The translations under genes and the position numbers were made by a program. A model generated the notes under the pieces. The model ran no database searches and was not told where the DNA came from. It saw nothing but the letters and a program-made list of their open reading frames with translations. Source: a virus. Taken from it: DNA of 20,112 bases. Positions 15,858-20,112 of this stretch are shown here, in pieces (the stretch's first letter is position 1; the number at the start of each line of letters is the position of its first letter). The DNA lies in IMG/VR virus record IMGVR_UViG_3300021957_000420, positions 1 through 20,112 of that record; one strand, given 5' to 3'.

Positions 15858-16160
15858 ATGAGCAATTTATCTAATAAAATATCCGAAAAGATTTATCGTG
15901 AAGGCGATCAAATTGTTATTAAGAAAACATTTGACGCTGACCAGGCGAAACGTGACGCGGCTTACGCCAGAGAAGTTACTGAAAATAGCTTTGGGTCGGA
16001 TTATAAGCATGTAGGCAATGTTGATATGGGTATGTTAGAAATTTGGCTAAAGCAAGCAGGGGTTAAATGGACTGATACTGAAGCCGTAAAAGAAGTAATT
16101 AAAAGCAAGCTTATGAGCAATGAATTTAGCGCTCTACGCGTATGGGATGGTAAATATTGA
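15858..16160 (+). CDS. Conserved-type small phage protein, head-operon neighbour
   Basis: This 100-residue protein begins one base after the previous stop. It has a charged N-terminal half (EGDQIVIKKTFDADQAKRDA) and a compact C-terminal half with KHVGNVDMGMLEIWLKQAGV, KWTDTEAVKEVIKSKLM and EFSALRVWDGKY. The combination HVGxxxMxxxEIWLKxAGV...D.EAVKxxxKxKLxxxxFxxLRVW is recognisable from small genes beside capsid genes in many phages. Its exact role is not known. An AAAAAGG element lies six bases upstream. It shares one base with the next ATG (TGATG). Confidence 0.7.
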   Translation: MSNLSNKISEKIYREGDQIVIKKTFDADQAKRDAAYAREVTENSFGSDYKHVGNVDMGMLEIWLKQAGVKWTDTEAVKEVIKSKLMSNEFSALRVWDGKY

Positions 16161-16384
16161 TGGAAATTACTGATTTATGGAGCAGTATTCTTACCTTTGC
16201 GTTGGCTTTTGTCGGGTTTGTTTTGCGTGGCTATGTAGTAGAGGTGCAACGCCTGCAAATATTATTAAACAGAACAAGAGAAGATTATGTGACTAAATTG
16301 GATTCTTCACATGTTATGGCGCAAATAATGGGCAAATTTGACAAAATTGAAGAAAAACTTGATAGGTTAGTTGAAAGAAAATGA
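16160..16384 (+). CDS. Membrane-anchored coiled-coil protein (small)
   Basis: The ATG at 16160 overlaps the preceding TGA by one base. It is preferred to the in-frame TTG one codon earlier. The 74-residue protein has one N-terminal membrane helix (about residues 7-26, SSILTFALAFVGFVLRGYVV). A charged helix (27-74) ends in a heptad-like IMGKFDKIEEKLDRLVERK coiled coil. There is no signal-peptidase site, so the helix is probably a permanent anchor. The shape is compatible with an inner-membrane spanin-like, holin-accessory or envelope-scaffold protein, but none is proven. It opens the export-rich block and overlaps the next gene by four bases. Confidence 0.7.
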   Translation: MEITDLWSSILTFALAFVGFVLRGYVVEVQRLQILLNRTREDYVTKLDSSHVMAQIMGKFDKIEEKLDRLVERK

Positions 16385-16944
16385 CACGTTTATTCATAAT
16401 AATGTCTTTTTTAATATTAGGGCTTGTTATAGGTAAATCTGCCTTTGCTGAAGACGATACAATAAAATCTGAAAGCACAGTGACGTCAAGTGGCTCAATG
16501 GACACTACAATCAATAGCCCGCCACCTTCTGCAATATCTCCACAAATTAGCAATAGTAATTCAGATTTATGTACTGTTGGTGTAGCTGGCGCCGTTCAAA
16601 CGCAAATACTTGGCATTTCTGCTGGTCGTACAGTACGTGACATGAACTGTGAAAAATTAAAAAACGCCAAAACCATGTACGATATGGGGATGAAAGTTGC
16701 GGCTGTATCTGTAATGTGCCAGGACGAAAGAGTTTTTGAAGCAATGCTCAACGCGGGGACGCCCTGCCCCAAAGATGGGTTGGTGGGCGATAAAGCTAGA
16801 ATTGCATGGGAAATGGAGTCTGTTAAAGATCAGATTGAGCGTGAGCAAAATAATCCGATGAGAAAGATTTTTAATGAAAATATTGAAACAAAAACAGGGC
16901 TTAGTGTTATTATTAGCACTTTGGCCTTCTTACTCTTTTTGTGA
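16381..16944 (+). CDS. Secreted cysteine-containing protein with C-terminal membrane segment
   Basis: This 187-residue protein has a classical Sec signal peptide (MTRLFIIMSFLILGLVIGKS, cleavage predicted after AFA at residue 23). A Ser/Thr/Pro-rich linker (25-60) follows. The central domain (62-145) has four cysteines at about 64, 90, 113 and 129 that could form two disulphides in the periplasm. A charged helix comes next, then a short hydrophobic C-terminus (about 173-187, LSVIISTLAFLLFL) that could anchor it in a membrane. I recall similar proteins next to curli-type genes in marine phages, but the function is unknown. The last 71 bases are shared with the next gene in another frame. Start coupling is by ATGA. 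Confidence 0.75.
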   Translation: MTRLFIIMSFLILGLVIGKSAFAEDDTIKSESTVTSSGSMDTTINSPPPSAISPQISNSNSDLCTVGVAGAVQTQILGISAGRTVRDMNCEKLKNAKTMYDMGMKVAAVSVMCQDERVFEAMLNAGTPCPKDGLVGDKARIAWEMESVKDQIEREQNNPMRKIFNENIETKTGLSVIISTLAFLLFL

Positions 16945-17746
16945 CCCATACACTTATGGCGTTACTGGCAATGCAGTTTCTAGCTCATTAAGTTGGGGTA
17001 TGCCTGACGTTTTACCATATATTCCTGGCATAGACATAAACGGATTAATTTACAGGTACACAGCTAAAAAAGAAACTGAAGCTGACATGAAAGTGCACAT
17101 TGGTAATAAAAATATATCCAATGATGGATATATTTTTAAACACACGGATGATTGGTCAGGCGTACCGGGGAATAAAATTGTTAAGTCTTTTTCATTTAAT
17201 AATATACCATCATCTAATTGGGGTACGGGCTCAATATCTGTTGAGGGCGATGGAAGCGTAGAAGACGCAGTTGTAATATATAGCTTTAGAATTGATGAAT
17301 GTTTTGATGAGCAGTCAAATCCGAATTGCCCTGGTTACGTGAAGCCAATACCAAAATTGCCAGAATATGAAATATATGTCGCTACGGATGATGAAGATGT
17401 GCTCAATGCAATAGATGTTGATCTTGAGTATGAGTACGACGATGAAGGCAACATAATAACAGAAGATGAAGAAAAAGAAAAGGAAACGCGGCTTGAAATG
17501 GGATTAATGGCATCTGAAAATGCATTGACCATGTTCAAAACGCAAGGGCAGGCTGAAATCATCAATACTATGAACATGCAAACAGATATTGCTATGTACT
17601 ATAATTCCACAATAAATGGTGGTATATACAATGATAAGGCTAAATTAGTTGACGGAAATATAAGTGACAATAAACGTGGTTTAAGGAATAATTTAGCACA
17701 ACAAATTTTGCATGAACAAATGGTTGATATGCAATATAAAAAGTGA
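16874..17746 (+). CDS. Secreted protein with acidic central region, unknown family
   Basis: This 290-residue protein begins inside the previous gene in the +1 frame. Residues 1-23 (KQKQGLVLLLALWPSYSFC) form a signal peptide. The site is not a canonical lipobox, so a lipoprotein is unlikely though not excluded by the cysteine. The N-terminal domain (24-140) has VSSSLSWGMPDVLPYIPGID, a YIFKHTDDWSGVPGNKIV segment and a GSVEDAVVIYSFRIDEC strand, and is probably beta-rich. Cys143 and Cys152 may pair. Residues 171-206 are highly acidic and precede a helical C-terminus. The layout resembles an extracellular or periplasmic adhesin-like protein of marine phages, without a named family. It ends just before the pilin-like gene. 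Confidence 0.75.
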   Translation: MKILKQKQGLVLLLALWPSYSFCDPYTYGVTGNAVSSSLSWGMPDVLPYIPGIDINGLIYRYTAKKETEADMKVHIGNKNISNDGYIFKHTDDWSGVPGNKIVKSFSFNNIPSSNWGTGSISVEGDGSVEDAVVIYSFRIDECFDEQSNPNCPGYVKPIPKLPEYEIYVATDDEDVLNAIDVDLEYEYDDEGNIITEDEEKEKETRLEMGLMASENALTMFKTQGQAEIINTMNMQTDIAMYYNSTINGGIYNDKAKLVDGNISDNKRGLRNNLAQQILHEQMVDMQYKK

Positions 17747-17754
17747 GGTTTAAA

Positions 17755-18243
17755 ATGAAATATTTTACAATAATACTTACATTATTTGCTCTGCCTGTAT
17801 CTGCAAATGTAGAGATAACAGGTAATGTAGCTGCCAAATGTATAATACAAACAACTAAATCTGGTGCATATGGAAACCCTATTGCCAGTAAACTTAGTAC
17901 AACACCTGCCGATGGTGGTGTATTACCTATAATTAGATATGATGTGTCTATTGCAGATTCATATACAGCCAATATAACCCATCCAACAGCGTTTAGCTCA
18001 TCGCCTTCACTATCTGATACAGTTGCATGGACAGGCAGTACAAGCGTTACTCAAACGTCTGTTTCTGGTATGTCAGCATATGAAGCGGCAAAAACTGTTG
18101 TTGGAAGTACAACAATATTTGATTTAACGCTAGCAGGGTCTACTTGGTTTAGCACTGCATCAAGTGCTACATATGGGTCTGCAAAGCCGTTTCCAGGTGG
18201 AACATACACGTCCGTTGTGCAGGCCAGTTGCATTGCGAAATAA
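17755..18243 (+). CDS. Secreted pilin-like / spore-coat-U-like subunit
   Basis: The ATG at 17755 is chosen over the upstream GTG at 17743 because TGAGG (17744-17748) sits six bases before it. The 162-residue protein has a signal peptide (MKYFTIILTLFALPVSA, cleavage after residue 17). The mature domain is beta-rich. It starts with NVEITGNVAAKCIIQTTKSG and ends with PFPGGTYTSVVQASCIAK. The two cysteines (29 and 159) bracket the domain and could form one disulphide. The terminal GGTYTSVVQASC strand resembles the last strand of spore coat U and fimbrial subunits (GTYxxxVxxxxxC), which are exported and assembled with a chaperone. The following gene looks like that chaperone. The family assignment is an inference from fold and motif style. 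Confidence 0.65.
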   Translation: MKYFTIILTLFALPVSANVEITGNVAAKCIIQTTKSGAYGNPIASKLSTTPADGGVLPIIRYDVSIADSYTANITHPTAFSSSPSLSDTVAWTGSTSVTQTSVSGMSAYEAAKTVVGSTTIFDLTLAGSTWFSTASSATYGSAKPFPGGTYTSVVQASCIAK

Positions 18244-18619
18244 CATAATCATATTTCTTTTACTCTGGGCAACAGCACTTTCAAGTCACGAAATGACGCC
18301 TGCTTACCCAGAAGTAAAACCTTCTCACGTATTAGATGTGGTGAAAGTTGAAATGTCTTTGTTTAATTCAAGAGAAGAAATCCAATATTATCAAGTAGAC
18401 TTATTTGATTTAAATTGGACAAATATACCTTTTTCTACAACCTACAGAATAATTAAAATTGCGTACAAAGAGAAAAAGGCATTTAATGTGTATATTAGGA
18501 AATCTGACATGGATGAAGCTGTATATTTGTGCACAACTTCAAAAGTTAGAAAATCAAACAAATCTAAAACACTTATTTCATCAAGAATATGTTCAAGATT
18601 AGATGGTGAGCCCGCATGA
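18233..18619 (+). CDS. Secreted PapD-like chaperone-domain protein (candidate)
   Basis: The frame has no ATG near the expected start; the only upstream ATG lies 69 bases earlier, well inside the pilin-like gene. A TTG at 18233, with AGG nine bases upstream, gives a clean signal peptide (MRNNIIIFLLLWATALSS), so TTG is the likely start. The 128-residue product has VVKVEMSLFNSREEIQYYQV followed by DLFDLNWTNIPF and a RIIKIAYKEKKAFNVYIRKS strand. This layout resembles the N-terminal Ig-like domain of periplasmic pilus chaperones (strand, then xLxN/YYxVxLFD). Cys100 and Cys120 may form a disulphide. Only one Ig-like domain fits, whereas usual chaperones have two. It overlaps the upstream gene by 11 bases and the downstream gene by four. 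The assignment is moderate and needs structural comparison. Confidence 0.6.
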   Translation: MRNNIIIFLLLWATALSSHEMTPAYPEVKPSHVLDVVKVEMSLFNSREEIQYYQVDLFDLNWTNIPFSTTYRIIKIAYKEKKAFNVYIRKSDMDEAVYLCTTSKVRKSNKSKTLISSRICSRLDGEPA

Positions 18620-19014
18620 GACTTGCGTTAATATTTTGCACTTTAGCAAGTACGGCAATAGCAGAAAATAGCTCTTTGTCACTTGCGCTGCCGAGCCCAC
18701 CAATGAACTACCAATCTGACAGCTTTTCTACAGGCAATATGAGGTGCAGTAATGCTGTTGGGGGCGGAGTAAACCTTGAATACGGCGTTACAGGCGTTTT
18801 ATCTGGATTAGATAAGAATATGAGGGGGAAAGATATAGGCATATATGCACGTATTGTAATACCTCTTGATAAGCCAAAAGCACGTATAAATTGTGACGAT
18901 TTATACCAAATAGAGCTAACGCAGCGTAAGTTGGAAATACAAAAATTACGTGACGAAATTGAAGCTTTAAAGAAAATGCAAAATGTTGATACAGCAATGG
19001 AATTTGAAAATTAA
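18616..19014 (+). CDS. Secreted protein with C-terminal helix, curli-neighbour type
   Basis: This 132-residue protein has a signal peptide (MRLALIFCTLASTAIA, cleavage after residue 16). The mature part includes LALPSPPMNYQSDSFSTG, NMRCSNAVGGGVNLEYGVTG and KDIGIYARIVIPLDKPKARI. These read as beta strands of a surface or outer-membrane-associated module, with cysteines 44 and 93 likely paired. Residues 95-121 form a charged helix suited to coiled-coil pairing. I recall similar proteins beside CsgG-type genes in marine phages, but no pore gene lies in this window. The start is coupled by ATGA, and the last base overlaps the next ATG. Confidence 0.65.
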   Translation: MRLALIFCTLASTAIAENSSLSLALPSPPMNYQSDSFSTGNMRCSNAVGGGVNLEYGVTGVLSGLDKNMRGKDIGIYARIVIPLDKPKARINCDDLYQIELTQRKLEIQKLRDEIEALKKMQNVDTAMEFEN

Positions 19015-19526
19015 TGGTTGATACGATTAAAATTGCAGATGATATTGATGGCCTGGCGGATCGCCAGATCAAGGCAGGGGGCATGAAACTTACAATGGGC
19101 TCTGTTATGGCTATATTTGCATTTTTATCCACAATAGTCGGCGGTCTGTACGGCGGATTTGTTCTATATCAAAAAATTGAAGCTGTAGCGGGGCTTGATT
19201 TAGACGAATATCAACAGAACATGAAAGTTATGGATGCAAAGATTGTTGGTATATCTGAAAAAGTTGAAGAAAGTGTAGAATACACCAGAGACATTAAAAA
19301 TGGCTTAAAAGATGATATATTACGCATAGAGCAACAAACTGATAGAATTGAAGATATGGTGCGTAAATCCGAAGACAAAGTAAGGTCTATGATAGACGCT
19401 GCCGAGGTGCGCTTTGAAAATCAAAGAGAACGTGTTAGAGTATCCCAAAGTGGGTCAATGAAAGAACTGGAAGATAAGCTAATGGACAAGTTGCAACGCG
19501 CACTGGATAACCCTTTAGCAGATTAG
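19014..19526 (+). CDS. Membrane-anchored long coiled-coil protein
   Basis: This 170-residue protein has one membrane helix (about residues 29-52, GSVMAIFAFLSTIVGGLYGG onward). A helical, charged tail of more than 100 residues (64-165) follows, with heptad-like spacing (DKVRSMIDAAEVRFENQRER, KELEDKLMDKLQRAL). The N-terminal 28 residues are hydrophilic and lack a signal peptide, so the helix is probably a stop-transfer or reverse anchor. A similar plan is seen at 16160-16384, so the export block has an anchored coiled coil near each end. Possible roles are a periplasm-spanning tether, a spanin-like protein or a scaffold. No family is recognised. It starts at the ATG overlapping the previous TAA. 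Confidence 0.7.
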   Translation: MVDTIKIADDIDGLADRQIKAGGMKLTMGSVMAIFAFLSTIVGGLYGGFVLYQKIEAVAGLDLDEYQQNMKVMDAKIVGISEKVEESVEYTRDIKNGLKDDILRIEQQTDRIEDMVRKSEDKVRSMIDAAEVRFENQRERVRVSQSGSMKELEDKLMDKLQRALDNPLAD

Positions 19527-19533
19527 GTGTATT

Positions 19534-19851
19534 ATGGATGAATTTAAAAAATTTGATGTGGATGGTAACGGCACGATTGATCGTGAAGAATGGGATAAGC
19601 TTGAACTTGAAGATAAAAAGCGAAGGCTAGACGACGAAGACGCGCAAAGGGACGCTCAAAGGAGAATGACCTGGTTTGCTTTAACAGGTATGCTTTTATA
19701 TCCATTTGCAGTTGTTTTAGCTGATTTATTCTCTTTAATCGAAGCCGCCAAGATATTAGGGTCAATGGCTTCTATTTATTTCGTGTCTGTTGCGGGCATT
19801 GTATCAGTATTTTTTGGAGCTAACGCATTAGCGAAAGGTAAAAAGGAATGA
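19534..19851 (+). CDS. EF-hand protein with two membrane helices
   Basis: This 105-residue protein opens with a perfect EF-hand loop at residues 8-19 (DVDGNGTIDREE). The ligand positions are D8, D10, N12, T14, D16 and E19, with Gly and Ile at the canonical spots. A charged helix (20-44) leads to two membrane helices (about 45-66 and 75-97) and a basic tail. Such small EF-hand membrane proteins occur in marine phages. Calcium binding is strongly predicted by the loop, but its role, such as gating, sensing or lysis timing, is not known. AGGTG lies just before the ATG, and the end overlaps the next start (ATGA). Confidence 0.8.
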   Translation: MDEFKKFDVDGNGTIDREEWDKLELEDKKRRLDDEDAQRDAQRRMTWFALTGMLLYPFAVVLADLFSLIEAAKILGSMASIYFVSVAGIVSVFFGANALAKGKKE

Positions 19852-20112
19852 TAGCAGGTTTAGGATTATTAGGAAAAGTCGCTGATTTAGCAGGGACAAT
19901 GATTGAAGGCAAAACTGCCGTTAAGCAAGCTGAAGCGCAAACTAAAATGAAGATTGCAACTGGCGAGCTTGATTGGGATTTAGCCGCAATGAAAGCTTCT
20001 GAAAATAGTTGGAAAGACGAATGGATAACACTTCTCTTTTCGATCCCGTTAATTTTAGCGTTTTGCGGTGATTGGGGCAATCAAATTGTTGAAGCAGGAT
20101 TTTTAGCGTTAT
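19848..20112 (+). CDS. Holin-like membrane protein (3'-truncated)
   Basis: The frame starts at ATG 19848, overlapping the preceding stop by four bases and preceded by AAAAGG. It stays open to the window end. The visible 88 residues begin with a short hydrophobic stretch (MIAGLGLLGKVADLAGTMIE) and then a charged helix (about 20-50). DLAAMKASENSWKDEWITLL leads into a membrane helix (LFSIPLILAFCG), and a second hydrophobic part begins at the edge. The SWKDEW(I/L)T-LLFSIPLILAF motif recurs in small phage membrane proteins near lysis genes, so holin is the best guess. The rest of the gene is outside the window. An endolysin just downstream would support the call. Confidence 0.65.
   Translation, partial: MIAGLGLLGKVADLAGTMIEGKTAVKQAEAQTKMKIATGELDWDLAAMKASENSWKDEWITLLFSIPLILAFCGDWGNQIVEAGFLAL

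Follow-up and report, generated by a model that had tools for sequence, protein, structure and literature searches.

A block of exported and membrane proteins is encoded directly upstream of the lysis genes in marine phages with unrelated virions. We tentatively read it as an envelope complex, made late and stabilised by disulphides, that acts together with lysis, probably in breaching the outer membrane. This reading is reached from the position of the block and the elimination of known alternatives, not from activity.

A nine-gene envelope block

The stretch of DNA analysed here (the window) is a virus fragment of 20,112 bases with podovirus-type virion genes, namely a portal (phrog_1216), a major head protein (phrog_1328) and a tail fibre. 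The closest portal is that of Octadecabacter Antarctic DB virus 2 (49% identity). Positions 16160–20112 hold nine ORFs, P1–P9 (Table 1), and every product is exported or membrane-bound. An earlier note on this DNA had described an envelope block of eight genes; its description of the products stands, and the count becomes nine. P9 is full-length in a near-identical contig, L003. The membrane helices of P1 (one), P7 (one) and P8 (two) were assigned by hydropathy on homologues.

Table 1 Genes of the block in the window, and lipase genes found after P7 in four divergent contigs
Gene	Position	Strand	Features
P1	16160..16384	+	74 aa; one N-terminal membrane helix, short coil
P2	16381..16944	+	Sec signal peptide; conserved four-cysteine domain (residues 62-144); C-terminal hydrophobic tail
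P3	16874..17746	+	Sec signal peptide; jelly-roll domain (~residues 26-140); acidic linker; C-terminal part with MVDMQY end
P4	17755..18243	+	Sec signal peptide; two cysteines; apparent Ig/pilin likeness
P5	18233..18619	+	Sec signal peptide; one predicted PapD-like beta-sandwich domain; TTG start
P6	18616..19014	+	Sec signal peptide; two-cysteine domain; coil at C-terminus
P7	19014..19526	+	Core protein; inner-membrane helix (hydropathy); long coiled coil; invariant C-terminal NPL motif
P8	19534..19851	+	EF-hand (PF13202 above cut-off); two membrane helices
P9	19848..20112	+	Holin-like membrane protein, cut by contig end
Class-3 lipase (PF01764)	L168:11707-12435		Directly or soon after P7
Class-3 lipase (PF01764)	L171:11683-12390		Directly or soon after P7
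Class-3 lipase (PF01764)	L172:11735-12439		Directly or soon after P7
Class-3 lipase (PF01764)	L176:10962-11693		Directly or soon after P7

Several of the proteins belong to database families of unknown function, as had been anticipated: P2 matches phrog_20531, P6 phrog_37374, P7 phrog_3999 and P9 phrog_2524, and P1 matches phrog_462 weakly. Searches of Pfam, PHROGs and PDB sequences yielded no function for P2–P6. Parts of the module are already present in published genomes as hypothetical proteins, and no description of the module was found in the open-licence papers searched.

Export signals, cysteines and gene overlaps

The consecutive genes P2–P6 are the only ones among the 26 in the window to be picked out as Sec-exported by a simple home-made signal-peptide score (not SignalP) compared against shuffles. 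Their scores were equalled by 0–16 of 2000 shuffles, and the other 21 genes were not picked out. Homologues of P2–P6 keep the hydrophobic N-terminus and the small-residue cleavage sites, in agreement with the earlier proposal of five Sec signal peptides in a row. In three large contigs, P2–P6 form the sole credible Sec-exported gene set by a crude score. The cysteines, described before as coming in pairs or fours, proved invariant in the mature part of each protein, in alignments of 17–27 homologues per protein: C64/C90/C113/C129 in P2, C143/C152 in P3, C29/C159 in P4, C100/C120 in P5 and C44/C93 in P6.

Overlaps of 1–71 bases had been reported at most junctions. They are real and conserved, except that P3/P4 and P7/P8 do not overlap. 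P2 and P3 overlap by 65–74 bases in 74 of 74 loci (71 bases in the window), P4 and P5 by 11–16 bases in 72 of 72, P5 and P6 by 4 bases in 69 of 69, and P6 and P7 by 1 base in 62 of 62. Purifying selection acts on all nine genes (median dN/dS 0.07–0.13). In 68 of 72 homologues P5 begins with TTG, a start codon that falls within the last part of P4; this suggests that translation of the two is coupled or that the dose of P5 is set low.

The block accompanies unrelated virion modules

Relatives were gathered by scans with P3 (best 80 of 116 viral contigs) and P6 (best 80 of 430). The order P2–P7 is kept in more than 100 marine viral contigs, nearly all those of sufficient length, with P2–P6 identities mostly of 60–88%; P2 and P3 occur together in 147 loci, a few contigs being counted twice. 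P1, P8 and P9 are less constant: P1 is present often but not always (43 loci of the first set). Members of the P8 family were also seen apart from the block, in HTVC008M gp021 (L184:16021-16353; E 4e-39), which lies beside the tape-measure gene, and in MAG contigs.

At least three unrelated virion modules are represented among the contigs bearing the block. Among the 95 loci that extend far enough upstream, only 8 have the virion type of the window. Other loci have lambda-like siphovirus tail genes upstream (tape measure phrog_1538, phrog_290, phrog_2048) or T7-like podovirus genes (internal virion protein phrog_342), and further ones a distant relative of the window portal. The P3 tree mostly tracks virion type, requiring seven changes against a minimum of five, and L047, of a different virion type, is placed in a small clade of T7-like contigs (support 96%); we therefore conclude that exchange of the cassette between virion types has occurred, but not without restriction. 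This gene-order comparison, which the earlier note had itself put forward as a check, upholds the notion of a dedicated envelope machine, since the genes travel jointly across unrelated virion types.

A role in the virion or in adsorption, with the proteins as structural or tail-linked parts passing via the periplasm, is very improbable. Tail-fibre or other virion genes do precede the block and the matches of the P3 domain include tail-needle knobs of phages, but signal peptides and conserved cysteine pairs are ill-suited to cytoplasmic tail assembly, and the same block is paired with unrelated tails.

Lysis genes follow P7

Neighbouring genes were counted in the 110 loci whose sequence continues for 2.3 kb or more past P7. 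An endolysin lies within 2.6 kb after P7 in 98 of them (58 GH19-type, 40 GH108), and 98 have a holin-like gene within the same distance, 54 of the PF11351 (GTA_holin_3TM) family and 44 of P9 type. Two holin-like and two endolysin families thus stand beside the same block, and all four combinations occur. In L003, the full P9 is followed by a GH19-type endolysin, with a Pfam score just below the cut-off. P9 has no holin match in Pfam and its family is hydrophobic in the second half; we infer a holin-like role from its position, as it occupies the place of the PF11351 holins of other relatives. Of the downstream genes suggested for inspection, an endolysin was found, together with a holin-like gene, but no CsgG and no recognised spanin in the records searched. 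Of the three functions proposed earlier, outer-membrane remodelling for release is the best positional fit, since in near-identical and other relatives the holin-like gene and endolysin lie just beyond the point at which the window stops.

The same neighbourhood could point to lysis timing, with a periplasmic sensor complex that would control the holin by analogy with the secreted T4 antiholin RI, which we consider distinctly unlikely. The block does place Sec-exported cysteine proteins directly before a holin-like gene, and RI is likewise a secreted protein with a cleavable signal peptide that acts in the periplasm beside the holin (PMC8385771). However, six proteins are many for such a role, far more than in the RI case, no relation to RI was noticed, and retention of the block beside two holin-like families makes a specific holin contact unlikely.

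Predicted folds of P3, P4 and P5

The P5 model is a seven-strand sandwich (pLDDT 76). In a Foldseek search of the PDB, about 36 of its best 50 matches were pilus chaperones (FaeE, Caf1M, FimC, SfaE and DraB), with E values of 0.004–0.04 and TM scores of ~0.45, over a single domain only. A PapD-like fold is thus likely but not certain for P5, which had no Pfam match; in a viral structure library the matches of the model were limited to phage proteins without a name and to Ig-like proteins that are unrelated. The first domain of the P3 model is a jelly roll, best matched by the knobs of phage tail needles, by TNF-like lectins and by carbohydrate-binding modules; the C-terminal half is modelled at low confidence. 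The jelly roll is a common fold. P4 gives the impression, from its sequence, of an Ig/pilin-like protein and matches the gp142 family of Vibrio phages by profile (E 3.5e-7); gp142 is a two-cysteine protein with a pilin-like look. P4 matched no pilin family in Pfam or among PDB sequences.

These folds bear on an unlikely alternative, a surface coat or fibre, in which P4 would be the subunit, P5 its chaperone, and P2, P3 and P6 would display or anchor an appendage on the infected cell, serving aggregation or phage exclusion. The chaperone matches of P5, the profile shared by P4 and gp142, and the lectin-, CBM- or knob-like jelly roll of P3 speak for it. As in chaperone-usher pili, P5 may have a PapD-like fold and P4 appears to be a small secreted two-cysteine protein of Ig/pilin type. 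Unlike in those pili, P5 has one domain where true PapD chaperones have two, P4 has no pilin match, a holin and an endolysin adjoin the block, and there is no usher: PF00577 was absent from all 25 records searched, with a positive E. coli control, and a chaperone-usher pilus was rejected on that ground. The surface fibre of the earlier note gains a hint from P5 and P4 but lacks usher and CsgG, and its superinfection-exclusion coat found no specific support.

The earlier note had also placed some of these proteins near curli-type genes of marine phages. The curli (T8SS) region of pelagiphages (PMC9599517) is, like the block, a multi-gene exported module shifted between phage families in marine phages. 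In contrast to that region, CsgG (PF03783) was absent from all 32 records searched, although it was detected in four control genomes, and none of P2–P7 was found in the first 50 kb of HTVC008M, curli locus included. The link was not borne out, and curli was rejected for the records examined.

Two separable trios in cultured phages

P2, a core protein, is common to the block and SAR11 phages. Cultured pelagiphages and roseophages with P2 are HTVC115P, HTVC202P, HTVC033P, Baldr, HTVC023P, the myovirus Mosig, CRP-207 and CRP-810; in most of the genomes inspected, P2 precedes a secreted P3-like protein and then a P7-like protein with an NPL end. This arrangement is also found in MAG-binned phage contigs, and in HTVC023P an M15 peptidase comes after the trio. 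The P3-like proteins vary widely (300–850 aa), and all that some of them have in common is a motif of the M[VI]D[ML]Q[YW] type at the C-terminus. Profiles gave no link between the pelagiphage proteins and P3 over any length, and we infer homology from position, signal peptide and the C-terminal motif. The short P7-like proteins of some pelagiphages are weak matches by profile alone. In L088 (4227-5333), the gene just after the P2-like stretch is annotated ‘transport protein tonB’, and in L089 (3776-4531) the P2 homologue is annotated ‘OmpA family protein’; no support for either annotation was seen here.

Relatives of P6 occur in 64 Vibrio phage records. In the two T5-like Vibrio phages read, Pylo and pVp-1, a P4 relative and a likely P5 relative (gp143, a weak match by profile alone) precede P6, and a holin and an M15 peptidase follow shortly after. 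pVp-1 is counted among spanin-bearing phages (PMC6139136), so P4–P6 at least need not replace spanins.

Homologues had been expected together and not singly. P2–P7 do occur in order in the large majority of suitable contigs, but the trios P2-P3-P7 and P4-P5-P6 also exist apart, in pelagiphages and T5-like Vibrio phages, respectively. The block might then combine at least two independent envelope functions that simply lie side by side, one belonging to the P2-P3-P7 core and another to the P4-P5-P6 module. This is improbable: P4–P6 are nested between P3 and P7 in more than 100 contigs, and their position inside the core with conserved overlaps suggests one unit.

A possible route through the outer membrane

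We favour an outer-membrane breach because a holin-like gene and an endolysin (or a lipase) directly follow the block, and because no Rz, and no conserved lipoprotein near the block, were found. Rz (PF03245) was absent from 31 records, with a positive E. coli control; spanins being diverse, this absence is weak evidence. ORFs with a lipobox were found neither in the window block nor in L003, and none was conserved in 28 relatives; Vibrio phage lipoproteins were detected as controls. With no Rz and no o-spanin lipoprotein found, a known spanin system was rejected. The block resembles two-component spanins such as lambda Rz/Rz1 in its place in the lysis region and in P7, whose single helix and coiled coil would recall the i-spanin layout in the topology predicted from hydropathy. 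It differs in lacking a lipoprotein partner or Rz family match and in having five further exported proteins.

In the proposed mechanism, the block proteins would be exported, probably late in infection as judged from gene order, and deployed with the downstream lysis genes. P7 would sit in the inner membrane, with the coiled coil and the conserved tip, NPL, reaching into the periplasm. P2 and P3 would be secreted partners, an envelope-binding domain that varies being supplied by P3, and P4-P5-P6 an add-on in which PapD-like P5 may help to fold or hold Ig/pilin-like P4. Jointly, P2–P7 would breach the outer membrane, or destabilise it, when phages without recognisable spanins lyse the cell, acting like a spanin system yet standing outside the spanin family. 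Against an outer-membrane breach, two proteins suffice for a spanin and six is many; spanins are also very diverse and the contigs may be incomplete, so that a spanin may have been overlooked. The block proteins had no sequence or structure match to membrane-disrupting proteins. We are more doubtful of the full form of this reading, a multi-protein, lipoprotein-free breaching system of four-cysteine P2, variable jelly-roll P3, inner-membrane coiled-coil P7 and, optionally, a pilin/PapD-like add-on, which unrelated marine phages would pass on as a cassette and which would provide for release where spanins are lacking.

How phages without recognisable spanins disrupt the outer membrane is unsettled in the literature (PMC6139136), and the block is a concrete, recurrent candidate for this crossing. 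The presence of its parts in cultured SAR11 and Vibrio phages makes the module testable. Were it instead a coat or timing device, it would still be an unnamed envelope module common to phages of several virion types.

In the four divergent contigs of Table 1, a class-3 lipase (PF01764 over the cut-off) follows P7, in place of the holin and endolysin of the others; it is possibly a phage lipase for membrane lysis.
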